A stretch of DNA of 64,000 nt, from NCBI RefSeq assembly GCF_007859855.1, contig NZ_SJPK01000004.1, forward strand, positions 62,001 to 126,000, written 5' to 3'. The notes beneath the pieces were generated by a model that was given only the letters and a program-made list of their open reading frames with translations, was not told the DNA's origin and ran no database searches. This stretch comes from Allorhodopirellula solitaria (GTDB lineage: Bacteria; Planctomycetota; Planctomycetia; Pirellulales; Pirellulaceae). Position numbers and translations under genes: made by a program. Numbering within the stretch: position 1 is the stretch's first letter; each line of letters begins with the position of its first letter. Shown here one piece after another: positions 27,308 to 37,197 of the stretch.

Positions 27308-27420
27308 GGACGAGGCGACGAACTGTTGATTACCCACAAGTTGTCACACGCCGAAGGCGTTTTAGGCAATAGCCGGCGGTCGAGCGTAGCGACCACCGCC
27401 GGATACGTCTTGTGGGTAAC
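27308..27420. repeat. intergenic hairpin repeat, TTACCCACAAG family
   Basis: TTACCCACAAG (27330-27340) is mirrored by CTTGTGGGTAA (27409-27419), with an inner CCGGCGGT/ACCGCCGG stem. The left flank, GGACGAGGCGACGA, matches, in reverse, sequences beside the same motif at about 34836-34905 and 43893-43923. Confidence 0.65.
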
Positions 27421-27530: not shown

Positions 27531-29774
27531 ATGGCCAGGAATAAATCGCAGAACAAGCAAAAGAAAAAAAAGCAAAGCAAGACGCCAAAGCCGCGGCGGA
27601 AGCGCCCGACCCGGGCAGCTGCGGTCACGGTGGACCAGAAGCTGTCGCGTGTGCGTCCCAATGCCTATCCCGATGAGACAGCCGAGGATCGAGCGGTCTT
27701 CGACGCTCACGCACTGGCCAAGCTGCCGCCGGAGACTGCCGATCAGGTAAAACTCGTCCGCGAGGCGTTGGAATTGGTCGCGATGGGGCAGGACGTTGAT
27801 GCGGAGCAAAAACTCTCCGGAATTCCTCGACGCAGTCCGCTGAGCGATTGGCGGCTCTTTGTTCGAGGCCTGACGCAGTGGTATCGCGGTGAAACCGACG
27901 CGGCCGCAGCGACCTTTGCACGACTCGATCCCGATCGACGTCCTGGACGGATCGCTGAAACGCTACGCCACGCCGATACCCTGCCAGCGGATTCGCCACC
28001 CTCGGAGGCTCCACCGACCGCGGAATCGGAATGCGATCCCGTCCTTGTGTCAGGAGCCAAGCTTGTCCATCGCATCCGCTGCGAGCGCGCTGATCTCGAG
28101 GCTGCGAAAAAGGAATTGACAAGACCTGAACAATTGCCTGATGCGGAGGACATCGATATCCCCGAGGGCTTCCCGGGACCGCGGCAACTGCAGTGGCTGT
28201 TGGAGTTTAGCCAATCCAGCCTACGGCATGAGCCCGAGTTGGTTTTCACGCTCTTTAACAACCTGGTCCGGTTCGTTGCCAGCACCCCCCTGGCATCGCT
28301 GCTCGATTCGGTCACAGAGCGAGTCAATGGCCCGTCCTACGATCCGTCGCACGACTTGCTGCGATCCCTCTATTATCGCAAGTTCGAGGATGCTGAAGCT
28401 GAGATTGAGTCGTTTCGTAAAAAGTACATTGCTTCCCTGAAGAACAACCGTAGCGTGCCACCACCGGTTGCCCGGGCGCTCGAAGCTGAGCTGTTTCTAA
28501 TGGCCGCACGCGACGAGCAGGAATTCGACAGCCCGATGCAGATGTTCCCATTTGGGATGCAAGAGGCAGCGGACGGTCAACTGATCAATCAGTATTTCAC
28601 AGCCGCCACGAAAGCCTACCCCGCTCACGCCGAGGCCCACTCCGAGTATGTTGGCTGGCTGCGGTCGCAAGCCGACGTTCGCAATCAGACCAAAGCAAAA
28701 CAAAAAGCAATCGCGACTGATCTGGCCGTTGCCATGCAGCACTGGGCTGCCGGTTGCCCGGATGCGATCGAACCCCGCTTGTGGCTGGTCGATTACTTTC
28801 TCGAAAACGAGGAGCTCGAACGAGCCGAACCGCACGTTCGTTTTCTCGCCGACTCACGCAACGTGGACCTGCGTGTCCAGGCGACGCAGTGGAAATGGCA
28901 TCTTCTCGAAGCGATGCGATTGTGCCGCCGCAAGGCTTGGATGCATGGGGCGGAAGAGCAACTCGATGCGGCGGAGAAGATCTGGCCGCTTTGGCTCTCC
29001 CGAGACTGGCTGCCCTACCTCCATGCCGCTCTGGCGATCCGTCGCGGCGACACCGATCGTTACGAAACGCTGCGTCAACAGATCCGGGACTCATGGAAGA
29101 CCGACTGCGTCGACGACTATCGTTTGGCCGATGCCGTCATGATGCTCGGTGCGGCTCAGCGAATGCGGGTTCCCGCCGCTGAATTGAAACCGCTGCGGCA
29201 ACCTGTCGAAGAGGCCTTGAAAGGTCGCGAAAACCTGTCCAATACCGCGTTACTGCGCGCCGGTCACTTCTTCGTCGAGCTTTTTCGCGCAGGGCTGGTT
29301 TATCCCGCCTACCGCATGCACGGCAGCAAGTTTGCGGACGAGTTGGTAGCAAGATTGAGGGGCGGCCAATTGCGCAAAGGAGCGGACACAGAGGGCCCTG
29401 ATTTCTGGCCCGCGATCTTCTGGCTCGCCCAGTCACGGGTATTTTACGAGAATTCTAAGGTTCGGTTGCCCCAAGTTCTCATGCAGCTTGATGCACCGGA
29501 GAAAATCGCCGCCATCATCGTGCACACGGATGTTGAGCGGTCTTCGCGTTGGCTGAGTGACGCCAGTGGCGAACTTCTCGACGAACTCGAGGCTGCCATC
29601 CCCGAAGAGACCGATACCTACCTCAAGTACTGGTACAAACAGGTGCTGACCAAAGCCAAAGAGAAACAAGCGGCCTCTGAGTCGTCTCTGTTCGGCGGCG
29701 GTATTTTGGATCGAATAGCCGCCATGATGTCTGATCATGAATTGGACAACGAAGACGAAGACGAAGACTATTAA
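27531..29774 (+). CDS. large helical-repeat-like cytoplasmic protein of unknown function
   Basis: The 747-residue protein has a Lys/Arg-rich start (QNKQKKKKQSKTPKPRRKRP), a mainly alpha-helical body with alternating helices that recall TPR-like repeats (for example WRLFVRGLTQWYRGETDAAA and RPGRIAETLRHAD), and a very acidic end (DNEDEDEDY). No family was recognised. ATG 27531 starts after a purine stretch; earlier starts lie in a repeat-bearing spacer. The J-like, GrpE-like and Hsp70 genes follow after 90 bases, so this may be a client, adaptor or co-chaperone. That role is an inference from position only. Confidence 0.7.
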   Translation: MARNKSQNKQKKKKQSKTPKPRRKRPTRAAAVTVDQKLSRVRPNAYPDETAEDRAVFDAHALAKLPPETADQVKLVREALELVAMGQDVDAEQKLSGIPRRSPLSDWRLFVRGLTQWYRGETDAAAATFARLDPDRRPGRIAETLRHADTLPADSPPSEAPPTAESECDPVLVSGAKLVHRIRCERADLEAAKKELTRPEQLPDAEDIDIPEGFPGPRQLQWLLEFSQSSLRHEPELVFTLFNNLVRFVASTPLASLLDSVTERVNGPSYDPSHDLLRSLYYRKFEDAEAEIESFRKKYIASLKNNRSVPPPVARALEAELFLMAARDEQEFDSPMQMFPFGMQEAADGQLINQYFTAATKAYPAHAEAHSEYVGWLRSQADVRNQTKAKQKAIATDLAVAMQHWAAGCPDAIEPRLWLVDYFLENEELERAEPHVRFLADSRNVDLRVQATQWKWHLLEAMRLCRRKAWMHGAEEQLDAAEKIWPLWLSRDWLPYLHAALAIRRGDTDRYETLRQQIRDSWKTDCVDDYRLADAVMMLGAAQRMRVPAAELKPLRQPVEEALKGRENLSNTALLRAGHFFVELFRAGLVYPAYRMHGSKFADELVARLRGGQLRKGADTEGPDFWPAIFWLAQSRVFYENSKVRLPQVLMQLDAPEKIAAIIVHTDVERSSRWLSDASGELLDELEAAIPEETDTYLKYWYKQVLTKAKEKQAASESSLFGGGILDRIAAMMSDHELDNEDEDEDY

Positions 29775-29864
29775 CCGTCGCTGCATTGAAAGATGAGAGT
29801 GCTGCCCGCAACAGCTCGGGCGGGCGACAACGGACACGAACACGAAACCCCACCAACTCAAATC

Positions 29865-30266
29865 ATGACTGCTGAGCCCACCTCCAGCGAAGCCGCTGGC
29901 AACGCCTTGACCCACCCCTTTGAGATACTCGGTGTAGGTACCGATGCCGACGAGGCAACCGTTCGTGCTCGTTACCTCGAACTCGTCCGCCAGTATCCGC
30001 CGGATCGAGATCCAGACATGTTTTCTAAAATCCGAGCTGCCTACGAGGCTGCCACGAATCCCATCATCATGGCTCGCCGGATCCTCGAGGTCGTGCAAGC
30101 CGGCCCCAGACCATGGGCTGAGTTGCTCGACGAGCAATCCCAGCGACCACCGAGGCTGCCCCATGAGTTGCTCTTGAGCCTAGGGAATCGATCCCAACCG
30201 GACAAGCCAAAACCCACTGATGAATCAGCCTCCGACTCATCCGCCAACATGACATCCGATTCATGA
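29865..30266 (+). CDS. DnaJ-like protein with altered HPD motif
   Basis: The 133-residue protein has a single J-like domain at about 17-68: HPFEILGVGTDADEATVRARYLELVRQ followed by YPPDRDPDMFSKIRAAYEAA. The loop that is HPD in all classic J proteins reads PPD at 45-47, so the His that is needed to stimulate Hsp70 is missing. There is no Gly/Phe or zinc region; the C-terminal tail is charged. The start at 29865 was chosen as the first ATG before the domain. Its stop overlaps the GrpE-like start (ATGA), showing coupling. Confidence 0.78.
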   Translation: MTAEPTSSEAAGNALTHPFEILGVGTDADEATVRARYLELVRQYPPDRDPDMFSKIRAAYEAATNPIIMARRILEVVQAGPRPWAELLDEQSQRPPRLPHELLLSLGNRSQPDKPKPTDESASDSSANMTSDS

Positions 30267-31024
30267 ATGCTCCCCCAGGCAACGCGTCCGGCGATTCCAC
30301 GACCGAGGACATCCCACCGACCTTCGGCTTGCTCGATGTCGTCGAAGCGTTCACAGCGATGCGGCACGAGTATCGCAATCAAACCAAGGAAACCCGGGCC
30401 GTTGCCGAGCGACTCGGTAGCACCTCAGAGAAGCTGGACGCGGTGGGCGAACGGATCGAGGCCGTCGTCGCTGCCACCCAAAACAAGGCTTCCACCAGTC
30501 GATCGGGCGACGATCCATCCACGACCGATGAAAACCTCGGCTCGGTATTCGCCCTCCGCTTGGCCGAGATCGACCACGCCGTCAGCCGCTCGATCGACGC
30601 GGCGCGGCGTTCGCTCTGCACCAATCCGGATACCGCTCCGGCCCGTGCCCCGGTATCGGCCACGGACTATCTCGGGTCACTCGGCCCCATCACGCGATTC
30701 TTTTGCCGCCGATTTGCACACCAACTCGACCAGCAGCGGCAACACGAAGCCCAGCCCAAGCTCGGAACAGAACAAGCGACGATCGAGAACGTTGTTGCGG
30801 GGCTCGCGATGACGACCGACCACGTGCGACGGGAACTCAAGAAACACGGTGTCGAACGAATCGATGTGTTGGGCCAGCCCTTCGATGGCGAGGCCATGCA
30901 CGCCGTCGAAGTCGTCGACTCCGATGCCATTCCGCCGGGCCACGTTGCCGAACAGCTCTCCCCCGCGTACCGCTTCGGAGAGCGAATCATTCGGTACGCC
31001 GACGTGCGGATCGCTCGGGGGTAG
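30263..31024 (+). CDS. GrpE-like nucleotide exchange factor
   Basis: The 253-residue protein has an N-terminal helical part with VAERLGSTSEKLDAVGERIEAV as a coiled coil and a C-terminal beta domain closely resembling GrpE (GVERIDVLGQPFDGEAMHAVEVVDSDAIPPGHVAEQLSPAYRFGERIIRYADV). An Ala/Arg-rich insertion separates the two halves, so it is longer than usual GrpE (about 200). Position between the J-like and Hsp70 genes supports the call. It overlaps the upstream gene by four bases. Confidence 0.82.
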   Translation: MNAPPGNASGDSTTEDIPPTFGLLDVVEAFTAMRHEYRNQTKETRAVAERLGSTSEKLDAVGERIEAVVAATQNKASTSRSGDDPSTTDENLGSVFALRLAEIDHAVSRSIDAARRSLCTNPDTAPARAPVSATDYLGSLGPITRFFCRRFAHQLDQQRQHEAQPKLGTEQATIENVVAGLAMTTDHVRRELKKHGVERIDVLGQPFDGEAMHAVEVVDSDAIPPGHVAEQLSPAYRFGERIIRYADVRIARG

Positions 31025-31078
31025 TTCGTAGCTACGAGCCACTAGCTTTTTTCCATCAACTCAAACCACACTCAGTTT

Positions 31079-32899
31079 ATGACTTCATCCACCATCGTTG
31101 GCATTGATCTTGGCACGACCAATAGTGTCGTGGCTGCCGTTGTCGACGGACACGCCACCGTTTTGACCGAAAGTGGCGAATCTGTTCTTCCGTCGGTGGT
31201 CGGTGTGGATCCGACGGGCAAGCTGATCACGGGCGTGGTTGCGCGGAACCAGCAGGTAGCGTTTCCCGAGCGGACGGTGGCGTCAGTCAAGCGTCACATG
31301 GGCTCGATGAAGTCGCTCGAAATGGGCGAGCAGAATTACACGCCACCTGAGATCAGTGCGATGATTCTCCGTCGATTGCAGTCGCGGGCCTCGGCAGCCC
31401 TCGGTCACGAAGTCACGCGAGCGGTCATCACCGTGCCTGCGTTTTTTGACGAAAACCAACGCCAGGCGACGCGGGAAGCGGGCCAGCTCGCGGGGTGGAC
31501 TGTGGAACGAATCATTAATGAACCCACCGCCGCCACGCTCGTTTATCACGCCGGCAGCGACGACCGAATGCACCTGGTCGTCTACGACTTTGGCGGCGGT
31601 ACCTTCGACGTCTCCGTCGTGAGGATGGAATCCGGGATTATCGAGGTTCTCAGTAGCAAGGGCGATACGAAGCTCGGCGGCGACGACCTGGATTCCGTCA
31701 TCATGCGGCGCGTCGCCGATTCCTTCTACGATGAACACGAGATCGACCTGCGATCAATCGCCTCGGCACGCTGGCGGTTGCTGCAGGCCTGCGAAGCTGC
31801 CAAATGTCAGCTCTCGGTGGAAGAACACGCCACGATTGCCGAGGAGTTTATTGCTGAGAAGGACGGACAGCCACTCAACCTGGAGTTCACGATCACTCGT
31901 TCCGACTACGAGCAATGGATTCACGACTTTGTCGATCGCACCATCCAATGTGTCGACGAAGCGATCGTTGACGCGGGATTGACCGTCAAGCAGATCGACG
32001 AACTGGTGCTCGTCGGAGGGACGACGCGGACGCCTCTGATCGAGCAGCGTCTTCGCTCCGAGTTCAACCTCGAACCCAGCCGCGCGGTCGATCCGGACCT
32101 CGCCGTCGCCCTCGGTGCGGCCACCCAGGCAGCGATGATTGCAGGGGAAACGGTCGGTCCGATTCTGGTCGACGTCACCTCCCATACCCTCGGCGTCGAA
32201 GCACTCGATGGTGATGGCTTGTTCCAGACTCGCACCAGCTTCTCACCCATTATCCACCGTGGGTCGCCGCTCCCAGCCAGCTACGAGGAGGCCTACTCCG
32301 CCATCCATGAATCCCAGGAATCGGCCCGCATTCATGTGCTCCAGGGAGAGCACAGTGAGATCGACAGCAACACCTCCATCGGCGAGTTCGACTTGCCCCT
32401 TGTCGATCCCAGCGGCGACCGTGCCAAGGTGCTCGTCCGCTTTCAACTCTCCCTCGACGGTACTCTCAAAGTGACCGCCCGTCAGTTTGGCAATGACCAA
32501 CCCAGCGAGTTGGTCATCAACAACGCCCTCGCGCAGTTCCAAGAAGAAGAACGTGGAAAGGCATCCGATCGCCTCGCTGAGATGTTCCTGCAGAGCGATG
32601 AGATTCAATCGAGTCCAGAGGGGCATCTTCACGATCCCTCGGGTTCCACCGTCATTGATGCCGTCGGGACTGCGGCACCGGCCGCTGAGGCAGAGGTGCC
32701 AGAGGATGATGGACTCGCCTCGCACCGGGCAACGCTCCGCCGCGCACAAGCTGCGCTAGGCAAAGTCCAAGGCGAAGACGCAAGCGAGATTGCTGAGCTC
32801 GCCGAGCGACTCGAAGCCGCTATCGATGCCCAGGATGCTGACACCGCTAGTGAGACCAGTAATGAACTCGATGACGTGCTGTTCTACGTTGGGCAGTAA
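31079..32899 (+). CDS. Hsp70 (DnaK-like) chaperone, divergent type
   Basis: The 606-residue protein starts its ATPase domain with GIDLGTTNSVV, and has the phosphate and adenosine motifs VVYDFGGGTFDVSVV and VLVGGTTRTPLI. The interdomain linker, DVLLLDVTPLSLG in DnaK, reads ILVDVTSHTLG, so the conserved leucines are changed. The substrate domain is present; the C-terminal lid is short and ends without the EEVD-like or DnaK acidic tail. It therefore appears to be a specialised Hsp70 rather than the main DnaK. It follows the GrpE-like gene by 55 bases and is followed after four bases by a zinc-ribbon gene. Confidence 0.9.
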   Translation: MTSSTIVGIDLGTTNSVVAAVVDGHATVLTESGESVLPSVVGVDPTGKLITGVVARNQQVAFPERTVASVKRHMGSMKSLEMGEQNYTPPEISAMILRRLQSRASAALGHEVTRAVITVPAFFDENQRQATREAGQLAGWTVERIINEPTAATLVYHAGSDDRMHLVVYDFGGGTFDVSVVRMESGIIEVLSSKGDTKLGGDDLDSVIMRRVADSFYDEHEIDLRSIASARWRLLQACEAAKCQLSVEEHATIAEEFIAEKDGQPLNLEFTITRSDYEQWIHDFVDRTIQCVDEAIVDAGLTVKQIDELVLVGGTTRTPLIEQRLRSEFNLEPSRAVDPDLAVALGAATQAAMIAGETVGPILVDVTSHTLGVEALDGDGLFQTRTSFSPIIHRGSPLPASYEEAYSAIHESQESARIHVLQGEHSEIDSNTSIGEFDLPLVDPSGDRAKVLVRFQLSLDGTLKVTARQFGNDQPSELVINNALAQFQEEERGKASDRLAEMFLQSDEIQSSPEGHLHDPSGSTVIDAVGTAAPAAEAEVPEDDGLASHRATLRRAQAALGKVQGEDASEIAELAERLEAAIDAQDADTASETSNELDDVLFYVGQ

Positions 32900-32903
32900 G
32901 AGT

Positions 32904-33146
32904 ATGCCGGGCGCCGAATTCAAATCGTCATCGCTCGCTCGTGCCGCTACCGCAGGCGATAGCTTCCGCTGTCCAGCCTGTCGGGCACGGCAGCCGGTGC
33001 AGGATACCTGCCGTCGCTGCCGAGCCGACCTTGCGCTGCTAGCTAAAATCCACCACCGCATTGACTATCTAATGCGCAACCCCAGCCCTGCTGGCCGATC
33101 CGAGTTAGCCATGCTCCTTGCGTCCCATCAAGAGAGCGGAGGCTGA
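32904..33146 (+). CDS. small zinc-ribbon protein
   Basis: The 80-residue protein contains two CxxC pairs (CPACRARQPVQDTCRRC), which should bind one zinc ion, and a helical C-terminus. It begins four bases after the Hsp70 stop, so it is probably translated from the same mRNA. The function is unknown; the zinc-binding motif recalls the zinc region of classic DnaJ that is missing from the upstream J-like protein, an inference only. Confidence 0.72.
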   Translation: MPGAEFKSSSLARAATAGDSFRCPACRARQPVQDTCRRCRADLALLAKIHHRIDYLMRNPSPAGRSELAMLLASHQESGG

Positions 33147-34469: not shown

Positions 34470-35341
34470 CGCCCAATCATTGGCCTCGCAACTGGCGATC
34501 GAAGCAAGCCGGTCGAATGACCCTGCGGCGGCGAGCCCTGACCAAACGAAGTTGCCAACCGCCACCGACCTGTAGTGAACGATGCGACGAGCTGTCGGTT
34601 ACCCACAAAACCGGATCCCCTGTCAGCTTGTCTGTCAGGAATCTCCGTTTTGTGATTAGATCAAGATGGAGCATTCACCCCGCTCCCATGCGGGCTTGCC
34701 CCGCATGACAGCAAAGTTGATCGACTTGGTTTCCTGTCAGACAAGCTGACAGGGGAACGCGTGTCGATACCGCGGTTTTCTAATTTCAAAACGTCGCTTC
34801 GGCGTGTGACAAGCACACGGGGAAGCAAACTTGTGGGTAAAGGACAGGAGGCGACGAGTCCAATCGATCACGCAAAGCGAAAGAGCTCGTCGCCTCGTCC
34901 AATACGACATTGATGACTCCCACGTTCCTAACACGGATCGACGCGAATGAAATCCACTTCCTGATCCGTGTCGATTCGTGAGATCCGTGGCGAAGGACGT
35001 CAACGATGGGGCGAAGATAGGCGGTTTGCCGCGCAGACGCTTTCAATCGGTCGAGCGATCAATCTTGACCCAGTTTGCCAAAGCGATAGAATGAGGCGAC
35101 TTTGGCAATCCAGCTAGCTCGGGCCGCTTGCGGCCTCTGCACGCTGGACGGGGGATGCGCCCGTTGTCGCGTTTTGTGCCCATGACAAGAAAATGGGGGC
35201 ATTTGCTCGACTGCATGGCATAAGTGCTAGTGCATCGTTCCCGAGGTTTTGCTAAATGAAGTGACTCAGCGAAGGTGGGAGACCTAAAGCCTTCGCTATA
35301 CATTAGGTAATGGTACTACCCCAGGGAGGATGGTTCCGGCC
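34470..35341. other. 872-base intergenic region with hairpin repeats
   Basis: No gene was found. It holds a CATGCGGG/CCCGCATG hairpin at about 34687-34707, the shared 116-base repeat (34725-34840), a TTACCCACAA motif near 34600 and several inverted segments such as CGGATC...GATCCG near 34934-34986. The last 60 bases should include the promoter and the ribosome-binding site for the response regulator. Confidence 0.6.
34725..34840. repeat. shared 115-bp intergenic repeat, copy A
   Basis: It begins CTTGGTTTCCTGTCAGACAA and ends CAAACTTGTGGGTAA. A second copy (43787-43901) has the same order with few differences. An internal GTGTGACAAGCACAC hairpin and the CTTGTGGGTAA end link it to the repeat at 27308. 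Confidence 0.85.
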
Positions 35342-35929
35342 ATGACCAAGAAAACCGTATTTACGACTGGCGAAGCTGCAAAAATTTGCAAAGTAAGCCA
35401 GCAAACGATTATCCGCTGCTTCGACAACGGTTCGCTCAAGGGCTTTCGAGTCCCCGGTAGCAAGTTTCGCCGCATCCCTCGTGAACAACTGTATATGTTC
35501 ATGAAGGATAACGGGATCCCTACCGATGCACTCGAGAGCGGTAAAAAGAAGCTCTTGATCGTCGACGACGACCAAGACTTGGTTGATTTGATGCAGGACG
35601 GTTTCCAACGCGATGGACGCTTTGAAATCCGTACAGCAAACAACGGCTTTGACGCCGGGATGGGCGTGAAGGAGTTTCGCCCCGATCTCGTCGTGCTCGA
35701 TGTGATGCTGCCAGACATTAACGGCAAAGAGGTCTGTCAGCGGGTGCGCAGCGATCCATCGATGGATACAGTGAAGATTCTGTGTATCTCGGGGATGGTT
35801 GAGCACAGCAAAGTCGACGGCTTGAAAGCCGCCGGTGCCAACGATTTTATGCAGAAGCCGTTTTCGATCGATGATCTCGTTGCCCGGTCGTGCGAATTGC
35901 TTGACATGGATCGTGGCGTGGTCGGCTAA
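35342..35929 (+). CDS. response regulator with N-terminal excisionase-like HTH and REC domain
   Basis: Residues 1-55 form a MerR/excisionase-type helix-turn-helix (FTTGEAAKICKVSQQTIIRC, then FRVPGSKFRRIP), and residues about 70-190 a receiver domain with acidic Asp75 and Asp76, phosphoacceptor Asp120 in VVLDVMLPD and Lys172 in FMQKPF. The order, HTH before REC, is the reverse of most response regulators. ATG 35342 was preferred to 35330 because GGGAGG lies at a usable distance only from the later one. Its stop overlaps the kinase start (TAATG), so they form a coupled two-component pair. Confidence 0.88.
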   Translation: MTKKTVFTTGEAAKICKVSQQTIIRCFDNGSLKGFRVPGSKFRRIPREQLYMFMKDNGIPTDALESGKKKLLIVDDDQDLVDLMQDGFQRDGRFEIRTANNGFDAGMGVKEFRPDLVVLDVMLPDINGKEVCQRVRSDPSMDTVKILCISGMVEHSKVDGLKAAGANDFMQKPFSIDDLVARSCELLDMDRGVVG

Positions 35930-37197
35930 TGCCTGCCGCGACGCGATACGCTGGTTGGTTGCCGCCGATTGTTGATCGCGGCCGCGCCGGTTGGCTGCCC
36001 TTTCAATCGACCTCGGTGGCCGCAATCAGTGGCGTGCTGGCGAGGGAGCGATCGTCCTCGACGCGAATCCGCGACTCGCTCCGCCGTGCGCTGCTGGGCG
36101 ATCCTGCGCTGCTGTTGCACAGCATTGCCGTGATGAGCTCATCGAAATCCACCTTGGATGAGTACACTCCACTGAGCTGTTTGATCGATTGGTGGTGCCA
36201 GTATGGTCGGTCGGCATGGCGTGAAACCGATTGGTTGGCGGCACCGTCAGGATCGGACGCGGCGGCACTGTTGGCGAGATACACGAAACTCGATGATTAT
36301 TTTCACCTGCTACCTCGACGCAGATGGCTAGAGGAGGCCGACGTTTGGTTTTCCGCCGCCGGGATCGGCAATCCGATTGGCCAATCATGGGAACTGGATT
36401 GGCCGGAACAGGATGCGGCGTTGTCGGCAACCGAACCGTTCGCGGACGCTCACCTGACGATCGCCGCGTCGCTACGAGATCAGGGCGATCGCGATCTCAC
36501 GAGCGAAGCTTTTGATGAAGCGGTCCAAGCGAGCAAACGCGAACTGGCACACACCTTGGCCTATGGGCTGAGCCATGAGATCAACAACCCATTGGCGAAT
36601 ATCTCGACTCGGGCCCAAGCTCTGCAGTCACGCGTGCCGACAGAGCTCACCGGCTCGGTGCAGCGGATTGTTGACCAAACCTCGCGCGCTCATGCGATGA
36701 TCGCTGACCTCATGTTCTACGCCAACCCTCCTGGAATCGTACCGAGCGAGTTCGATCTGCAGGCGAGGATTCAATTGGCCGTCGATTCGCTTACCGAAAC
36801 AGCCGAGCGGTTGGGGATTGAGATCGGCATGAGCGACGCTTTCCTCGAGCAGCCCTTGAAGGTGAGCGCGGATGCGGAAATGGTGGGCGAAGCGGTCGCC
36901 GCATTGATTCGCAATTCGATCGAAGCGATCGGAACGGACGGGCACATTCGAATCGACGTCACGACAGAGCAGTCTACTGTGCTGATTTCGATCGCCGACA
37001 GTGGCCCCGGCATTTCTGCCGAGGCTGCGAAAATGGCTGCGTCGCCCTACTACTCCGGCCGTGAAGCGGGGCGTGGCCTTGGGCTTGGATTGTGCCGGGT
37101 CGACCGGATCGCGGCACTGCATGGTGGCTCGCTAAAACTAGCACCTGCCCTGGCAGGCTGCGTCGCCACGATCGAACTCCCGATCGCGTGCGTCTGA
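35929..37197 (+). CDS. soluble histidine kinase
   Basis: The 422-residue protein has no membrane segment. Its first 170 residues match no family I recognise. The HisKA box contains His216 in SHEINNPLANIS; the N box is AALIRNSIEAIG, the G1 box IADSGPGIS and the G2 box GRGLGLGLCRVDRIAALHGG. It should phosphorylate Asp120 of the upstream regulator, which it overlaps by one base. A cytoplasmic signal, or input through the N-terminal region, is likely. Confidence 0.9.
   Translation: MPAATRYAGWLPPIVDRGRAGWLPFQSTSVAAISGVLARERSSSTRIRDSLRRALLGDPALLLHSIAVMSSSKSTLDEYTPLSCLIDWWCQYGRSAWRETDWLAAPSGSDAAALLARYTKLDDYFHLLPRRRWLEEADVWFSAAGIGNPIGQSWELDWPEQDAALSATEPFADAHLTIAASLRDQGDRDLTSEAFDEAVQASKRELAHTLAYGLSHEINNPLANISTRAQALQSRVPTELTGSVQRIVDQTSRAHAMIADLMFYANPPGIVPSEFDLQARIQLAVDSLTETAERLGIEIGMSDAFLEQPLKVSADAEMVGEAVAALIRNSIEAIGTDGHIRIDVTTEQSTVLISIADSGPGISAEAAKMAASPYYSGREAGRGLGLGLCRVDRIAALHGGSLKLAPALAGCVATIELPIACV

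Follow-up and report, generated by a model that had tools for sequence, protein, structure and literature searches.

The nearest known system to the locus reported here is that of HscC and its J proteins DjlB and DjlC, which carry an HPE motif. The standard motif of J-domains, histidine–proline–aspartate (HPD), is regarded as the essential trigger of Hsp70, and a module that has dispensed with it is a natural test of this switch. Our study concerns such a module, at positions 27531–33146 of a 64 000-nucleotide stretch of the Allorhodopirellula solitaria genome (the window; contig NZ_SJPK01000004.1), where five genes encode a tetratricopeptide repeat (TPR)-like protein, a short J-domain protein with PPD in place of HPD, a GrpE homologue, a divergent Hsp70 and a small zinc-ribbon protein. 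Judged by sequence comparison, it is most likely a dedicated machine built on an HscC-like Hsp70, in which coupling is histidine-free, the J/TPR adaptor is split and the exchange factor is the module's own.

The module has in common with HscC a divergent Hsp70, a deletion of nucleotide-binding domain (NBD) residues 76–101 and an insertion in loop L1,2. With DjlB/DjlC it shares a J-domain with a short loop, leucine at position 26 and, in many members, glutamate at position 35 (as in the E. coli HPE), and in both systems the specialised genes lie close together. However, no GrpE gene adjoins hscC in E. coli, and the GrpE signature is described as missing from the HscC family (PMC8215388), whereas the module has GrpE within the cassette. 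DjlB/C carry a tail anchor and a large fused C-terminal domain, whereas the module J protein is short and soluble, with the TPR and zinc-ribbon proteins on separate genes. The histidine kept in E. coli DjlB/C is lost in the module, whose Hsp70 forms a clade of its own and does not share the lid helix B deletion of HscC.

The canonical DnaK–DnaJ–GrpE machine resembles the module in combining an Hsp70, a J protein and a nucleotide exchange factor, in having an adjacent GrpE gene and in the full-length GrpE-contact loop of 47/60 module Hsp70s. It differs in that the module has no HPD, an altered linker, neither a DnaJ C-terminal nor a CxxCxGxG domain, and an Hsp70 from another clade. Type IV (pseudo) J proteins such as Pam16 likewise have a recognisable J-domain with HPD replaced non-conservatively, although Pam16 reads DKE/DKS (PMC13254874), whereas the module keeps P34 and D/E35 and has no HPD-bearing J partner in the cassette. 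A similar grouping of parts, Hsp70 and GrpE with DnaJ- or TPR-bearing proteins, is described for GAP1-N2 GTPase conflict systems (PMC7159879). DnaK2 of Myxococcus (MXAN_6671), with its GrpE, was set aside as a module member, having 62 % sequence identity with the DnaK of E. coli and a linker that hardly differs from that of MxDnaK1 (PMC11019930). A literature search that had most subscription papers outside its reach recognised no description of the five-gene cassette; Barriot et al. 2020 is cited in PMC8215388 for an analysis of prokaryotic J proteins.

The five genes of the window are as follows.

27531–29774 (from ATG), + strand: TPR-like protein of 747 aa with a basic N-terminus (open reading frame, AlphaFold, Foldseek, Pfam TPR_19 in relatives)
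29865–30266, + strand: short J-domain protein of 133 aa, PPD at residues 45–47 (Pfam DnaJ, motif survey, hydropathy)
30263–31024, + strand: GrpE homologue of 253 aa (Pfam GrpE, 68.8 bits)
31079–32899, + strand: divergent Hsp70 of 606 aa with linker GPILVD, ending soon after the lid (Pfam HSP70, 425.7 bits)
32904–33146, + strand: small zinc-ribbon protein of 80 aa, CPxC...CRRC (sequence motif)

A sequence-only reading of the window had described five compactly spaced genes in one direction, and the open reading frames (ORFs) bear this out, with spacings from gene 1 to gene 5 of 90, −4, 54 and 4 bases and a 4-base overlap of the J and GrpE genes. The five would be expressed as an operon. The J protein scored 30.6 bits against the Pfam DnaJ model (cut-off 27.8), and the GrpE and HSP70 matches were also above cut-off; the TPR-like and zinc-ribbon proteins of the window had no Pfam match above cut-off. 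No transmembrane stretch was found in any of the five proteins (highest 19-residue hydropathy 1.36). The genome as a whole (6.8 Mb, 62 contigs) gave three strong Hsp70 matches (at least 348 bits), the module Hsp70 among them, three weak partial ones, and two GrpE genes, of which that of the module is the second; the cell therefore also has an ordinary DnaK (linker VLLLD) and another GrpE. An HPD-bearing J protein of about 330 residues is encoded elsewhere in the genome.

Conservation of the cassette and its motif

The window J protein reads QYPPDRDP where DnaJ reads KYHPDRN, and an ungapped alignment places PPD (residues 45–47) on H33-P34-D35, confirming the replacement first noted from the sequence alone. 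Related loci were gathered by four routes. A protein search of 60 related genomes found 18 with any match, and all nine strong short J matches from genomes other than the own one lie within this cassette, which a contig end truncates at the 5′ side in one case. Two peptide patterns scanned over 84 980 species genomes gave 53 loci, reduced to 42 by dropping four same-contig duplicates (L062, L072, L089 and L097) and seven non-module loci (L096, L102 and L105–L109). Of the latter, L106–L109 are HPD-bearing J proteins of 333–365 aa beside which module genes were not found, L102 reads RPD and L105 reads SPE. A profile of the TPR-like protein, run against 392 genomes of the phylum, produced long matches of >100 bits in 14 genomes, the own genome included, while the next match, of 51.5 bits, was restricted to a generic TPR stretch. 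The five genes are all present at the 13 TPR-seeded loci outside the own genome; 12 keep the order, and L149 has it permuted to Hsp70–zinc ribbon–TPR–J–GrpE. Finally, a J profile run in the phylum of a Desulfobulbaceae genome found a short module-type J protein (at least 58.9 bits) in 9/297 genomes, the seed included; of the nine loci fetched, five were complete and ordered, three were contig-cut and L188 read GrpE–J–Hsp70.

Together with the window these searches make a set of 74 loci (1 + 9 + 42 + 13 + 9), and all five genes occur in the same order in 54 of them (45/64 and 8/9, plus the window). By reading of coordinates, contig ends cut 12 of the remaining 20. A GrpE gene lies in the cassette in 60/64 loci, the other four being cut by contig ends. 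No outside gene family recurred beside the module at more than 5/65 loci (BLAST, E 1e-8), which indicates that the cassette ends sharply; one of the two families reaching this count is the histidine kinase adjoining the module in the window. The ratio of non-synonymous to synonymous substitution rates (dN/dS) was 0.08–0.20 for Hsp70 in seven close pairs, not all of them independent, and 0.09–0.31 for the J protein in six of seven pairs. It was 0.16–0.41 for the TPR protein and 0.15–0.44 for the zinc ribbon between close pairs.

The motif of the 74 module J proteins was PPE in 33, PPD in 28, SPD in five, SPE in four, and TPE, PPS, RPE and GPD in one each. Ten further J proteins from the phylum J-profile search read PPE, PPD, SPE, PPD, PPD, PPE, PPD, PPE, TPE and PPE. 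Among these ten loci, L229 is arranged differently (with a 506-residue ORF) and L225 has its J gene 1.9 kb from Hsp70; the other eight are in module order as far as the contigs reach, with no zinc ribbon found in L222 and L228. HPD was thus seen in 0/84 module-type J proteins. Because one of the two scan patterns required proline in place of the histidine, the motif count of that scan cannot by itself be taken as independent. No such bias affects the 13 TPR-seeded loci, all of which lack the histidine (PPD 5, PPE 3, SPD 3, RPE 1 and GPD 1). All four proline codons are in use at position 33 (CCA 9, CCC 15, CCG 31 and CCT 7), so that what is conserved is the residue rather than the DNA; with the low dN/dS values, this codon variety indicates a residue that is maintained rather than decaying.

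Besides Planctomycetota, where Planctomycetes bacterium Pan216 (L061, a complete genome) and Stieleria sedimenti (L057) are among the carriers, genomes with the labels Desulfobulbaceae, Magnetococcales and Dehalococcoidia have the module, as does one Bacteroidales metagenome-assembled genome (MAG); the labels outside Planctomycetota are record titles, and single MAG contigs can be mis-binned. The module of the Bacteroidales MAG groups with planctomycete locus L100 in the Hsp70 tree. Within the phylum, the J profile matched 24/392 genomes, including all 14 found with the TPR profile, and within the genus 4/13 genomes carry the module (J matches from about 100 bits upwards, the best J below these scoring 46.7 bits). 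The DnaK of the own genome is 92–93 % identical to that of three module-bearing genus mates, whereas their module Hsp70s are only 42–54 % identical to that of the window and are separated from it in the tree. This contrast suggests that the cassette has been exchanged or differentially lost.

The evolutionary half of the question is answered by this family: the histidine is gone from 84/84 J proteins from several phyla, under purifying selection and alongside a cognate Hsp70 that keeps its J-receiving residues but has an altered linker. For other deviations from HPD, whether they are an accident of evolution or were selected is called enigmatic in a 2026 review (PMC13254874).

The Hsp70 surface and the proposed coupling

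A tree of 93 sequences unites the 60 module Hsp70s in a single clade (support 99), which is distinct from 18 DnaKs and from HscA and falls within a larger clade (support 95) together with HscC and the two odd Hsp70s of L096 and L105. A smaller tree gave the module clade a support of 100 and only a weak link to HscC (support labels 55–61). The earlier suggestion of a specialised Hsp70 machine is well supported.

In the DnaK–DnaJ complex, H33 bonds the L391 backbone, P34 touches P419 and D35 bonds R167 and Q378, while DnaJ R22, K26, R27, K48 and K51 face DnaK E206, D211, E217 and D477 (PMC8215388). The module Hsp70s retain the receiving residues: R167 in 59/60, N170 in 58/60, Q378 in 56/60, L391 in 60/60, D393 in 58/60, P419 in 60/60 and E217 in 59/60. 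V389 is lost in 60/60, replaced by P in 23, S in 16, A in 12, R in six and T, H or Q in one each; none of the 60 keeps T417 (P 45, A 10, S 3 and K 2); and E206 has changed in 59/60, most often to Q (20) or R (19). Of the 18 DnaKs aligned with them, 13 have V at position 389 and five have L or M, and 17 have T at position 417. A changed linker had been proposed from the sequence, and this held in part: the window reads GPILVD against DVLLLD in DnaK and the start of the linker is altered throughout, but its core, L391 and D393, is kept. R56, half of one salt bridge of the DnaK cleft, is N in 60/60 module Hsp70s, with E267 kept. The D211 region is shortened, as it also is in 13/18 DnaKs, and is therefore not a mark of the module.

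On the J side, P34 is present in 65/65 proteins, D or E at position 35 in 64/65 and R22 in 64/65. Position 26 carries L instead of K in 64/65, a feature shared with DjlB/C, and R27 has given way to E, Q or D in 55/65. The predicted structure of the window J protein (pLDDT 81.2) matched J-domains in Foldseek, none below E 0.001; the third match was the DnaK-bound J-domain 5nro_B (E 0.016, target TM 0.66). Its highest 19-residue hydropathy was 0.66, compared with 1.99–2.39 in DjlC/DjlB, and it has no transmembrane stretch. The kept and changed residues of the two partners suggest that the J-domain would still land at the usual site, on a re-cut Hsp70 surface.

A second divergent pair is encoded elsewhere in the own genome (L045, contig C2, 8944–12872), where the gene of a 737-residue J-like protein overlaps that of a 576-residue Hsp70. 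The J-like protein scored 13.1 bits against PF00226, below the cut-off, and has no HPD-like motif at all, and the Hsp70 has R167 changed to D, Q378 to Y, D393 to N and E217 to R. With both sides of the J contact gone, this pair looks uncoupled, in contrast to the window module, in which the receiving side is kept and the histidine lost.

Our preferred reading, to which we give a probability of roughly 60 %, is that the module would be a dedicated cytosolic Hsp70 machine, inherited as a cassette, in which a co-adapted J–Hsp70 pair couples without the histidine. In such a machine, the TPR solenoid and the zinc-ribbon/TPR protein would select or hold a client, and the short J protein would dock its cognate Hsp70 at the usual J site, with P34 and D/E35 meeting P419 and R167/Q378 if the contacts follow those of the DnaK–DnaJ complex (PMC8215388). 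The contact of the J-side histidine to the linker is gone, and on the Hsp70 side V389 has been replaced by P, S, A or R and T417 by P or A; these losses on both partners suggest that the pair is probably co-adapted for ATP hydrolysis without the histidine. The changes at J27 and Hsp70 206 probably insulate the module from DnaK/DnaJ, and the cognate GrpE would then exchange the nucleotide. The module proteins would be expected to form a complex.

We regard as evenly balanced the proposal that the J-domain would trigger ATP hydrolysis through P34 and D/E35, acting with a linker that starts with proline or a small residue and with T417P. This would amount to an orthogonal J–Hsp70 code that is fixed in several bacterial phyla and operates with a dedicated exchange factor and a separate TPR adaptor. 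The idea of a different way of coupling is plausible: the linker start and the charged contact have changed, although the J-receiving residues have not. A designed J analogue without HPD is described as stimulating Hsc70 (PMC13254874). In mates from the genus, family and order, the motif of the HscC-type J proteins (552–576 aa) encoded near an HscC-type Hsp70 is KPE at 6/6 loci (L046, L047, L048, L051, L052 and L054); with HPE in E. coli, this indicates that relaxation at the histidine extends more widely among specialised Hsp70 systems. If the coupling works, the minimal requirement for J-to-Hsp70 signalling needs rewriting, and an orthogonal chaperone pair is gained.

Several observations weigh against the preferred reading. 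Replacing H by Q in HPD abolished stimulation in every system tested, as reported in PMC8215388 and PMC13254874, and the latter presents HPE as the only HPD replacement that seems to be tolerated. The change at J27 and Hsp70 206 is a shift relative to DnaK/DnaJ, with no clean pairwise covariation within the family. Eight loci are incomplete or reordered for reasons other than contig ends: besides L149 and L188, the zinc ribbon was not found in L095 and L100, L090 and L094 have TPR–J–GrpE without an adjoining Hsp70, only J and GrpE were found in L093, and L080, which is not clearly contig-cut, has 345 bases left after GrpE and no Hsp70. The Hsp70 is split over two ORFs in L070 and L150 and contains a stop in L149, and dN/dS of the J protein reached 0.66 in one pair of little divergence (L043/L091).

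In the four loci with J–GrpE and no adjacent Hsp70 (L080, L090, L093 and L094; three of the four also have the TPR gene), the Hsp70 may lie elsewhere in the genome.

Competing explanations

The alternative that survives best, though we consider it rather unlikely, is that the J protein is a pseudo-J (type IV) protein, which docks Hsp70 to the TPR scaffold without stimulating its ATPase, the trigger being instead the client, an ordinary DnaJ or a high basal rate. It would explain the loss of H33 in 84/84 J proteins together with that of V389 in the linker, and it agrees with reports that HPN and QPD lose all stimulation and that J-domain proteins with an altered HPD are presumably nonfunctional (PMC13254874). 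However, P34 and D/E35 are kept almost without exception, as is R167, and a pure tether would not need these residues; the L045 pair of the same genome, by contrast, has lost both sides. The cognate GrpE moreover suggests a full nucleotide cycle.

We think it improbable that the module is simply a variant of HscC–DjlB/DjlC with the same poorly known job (metal or membrane-protein stress). Shared features include the short J loop, L26, E at position 35 and the larger clade with support 95. NBD residues 76–101 are deleted in 60/60 module Hsp70s and 8/8 HscC sequences, a deletion also reported for many non-proteobacterial DnaKs (PMC8215388), and the L1,2 insertion is of eight residues in 55/60 module Hsp70s, within the 4–8 by which HscC is recognised. 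The GrpE-contact loop (284–297) separates the two poorly by length, with 14 residues in 47/60 module Hsp70s, 10 in nine, 13 in three and 15 in one, and 13 residues in 6/8 HscC sequences. On the other side stand the separate module clade (99) and the weak link in the smaller tree. The span of lid helix B (DnaK 510–560), compared in a loose alignment, is 40 residues in 8/8 HscC sequences and 49–135 in the module, where it is shorter than the 51 of DnaK in only 1/60 and hence not shortened in 59/60. In addition, GrpE belongs to the cassette in all of the 64 loci in which contig ends do not intervene, and the module J protein has neither a membrane anchor nor a fused C-terminal domain. The TPR protein showed no detectable relation to the C-terminal domain of DjlC (hhalign probability 5.8), and homology between the two was rejected. 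Three genomes of the genus (G002, G005 and G010) carry the module-type J protein as well as a longer HscC-type one.

A role in conflict or defence, on the pattern of the GAP1-N2 GTPase systems, is harder still to argue for and in our view very improbable. Its appeal lies in the patchy occurrence in the genus, in the divergence of the module Hsp70s where DnaK is nearly identical, and in the described neighbourhoods of Hsp70 and GrpE with DnaJ- or TPR-fused proteins (PMC7159879). However, no GTPase or effector gene was among the window neighbours scanned, which include CBAH, EF-Ts, a GDSL lipase, FtsK, IMPDH, a two-component pair and others. No widely recurrent extra gene accompanies the module at other loci (no outside family at more than 5/65), the search for GTPase domains having covered the window neighbours. 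PADLOC gave a single weak match, of GrpE to ZorA1 (10.9 bits).

Chance association or decay, which the missing HPD and the few broken Hsp70 frames (L070, L149 and L150) might suggest and which HPD-bearing orthologs or lost synteny would have favoured, has a negligible probability and is already refuted by the conserved order and fixed motif, by dN/dS <1 in every pair computed and by synonymous change at the proline codon.

Accessory proteins and surroundings of the locus

The first protein had been described as large and helical, with a role as adaptor proposed from its position. The fold is now better defined: AlphaFold predicts an all-helical solenoid (pLDDT 84.0, pTM 0.73), and the best Foldseek matches in the PDB were complexes with the TPR superhelices TTC7B, Ctr9 and Ski2-3-8 (E 4.1e-5 at best), at TM-scores of 0.1–0.3, and thus identify the type of fold without implying any nearer relationship. 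Pfam TPR_19 was matched by 17/36 members of the family, the window protein not among them. A role as scaffold or client adaptor would suit the predicted fold and, as before, is put forward conditionally. The TPR proteins of seven loci (L036, L037, L058, L059, L061, L140 and L141) have an extra C-terminal cysteine cluster of CxCxxC or CxxC type that is missing from the window protein. The module Hsp70s end in an acidic-hydrophobic FY(L/V) motif where the tail of DnaK is longer, and FY[LVIF] occurs in the last 14 residues of 44/53. By analogy with EEVD, this may be a docking tail for the TPR protein; alternatively, it may just be the end of the lid. For the module GrpE, we propose the part of cognate nucleotide exchange factor.

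The zinc domain of DnaJ consists of CxxCxGxG repeats. The zinc-ribbon protein has one pair of CxxC motifs, and in some relatives TPR-like helices follow the ribbon; the earlier idea that it is the zinc domain of DnaJ moved to a separate gene was accordingly rejected. A weak match to the HscB tetracysteine model (16.5 bits, cut-off 26.2) was seen in 1/29 members.

A scan for regulatory signals gave two promoter-like sites against 1.5 expected and 13 terminator-like sites against 5.8 expected, some of them intragenic, and was not used. About 130 bases upstream of the TPR gene, at 27372–27402 of the window, lies a GC-rich palindrome-like stretch flanked by the inverted arms TTACCCACAAG / CTTGTGGGTAA, in a single copy within the window. 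Downstream of the module, positions 35330–37197 encode a response regulator with an HTH_17 domain before the receiver, whose gene overlaps that of a histidine kinase by one base.

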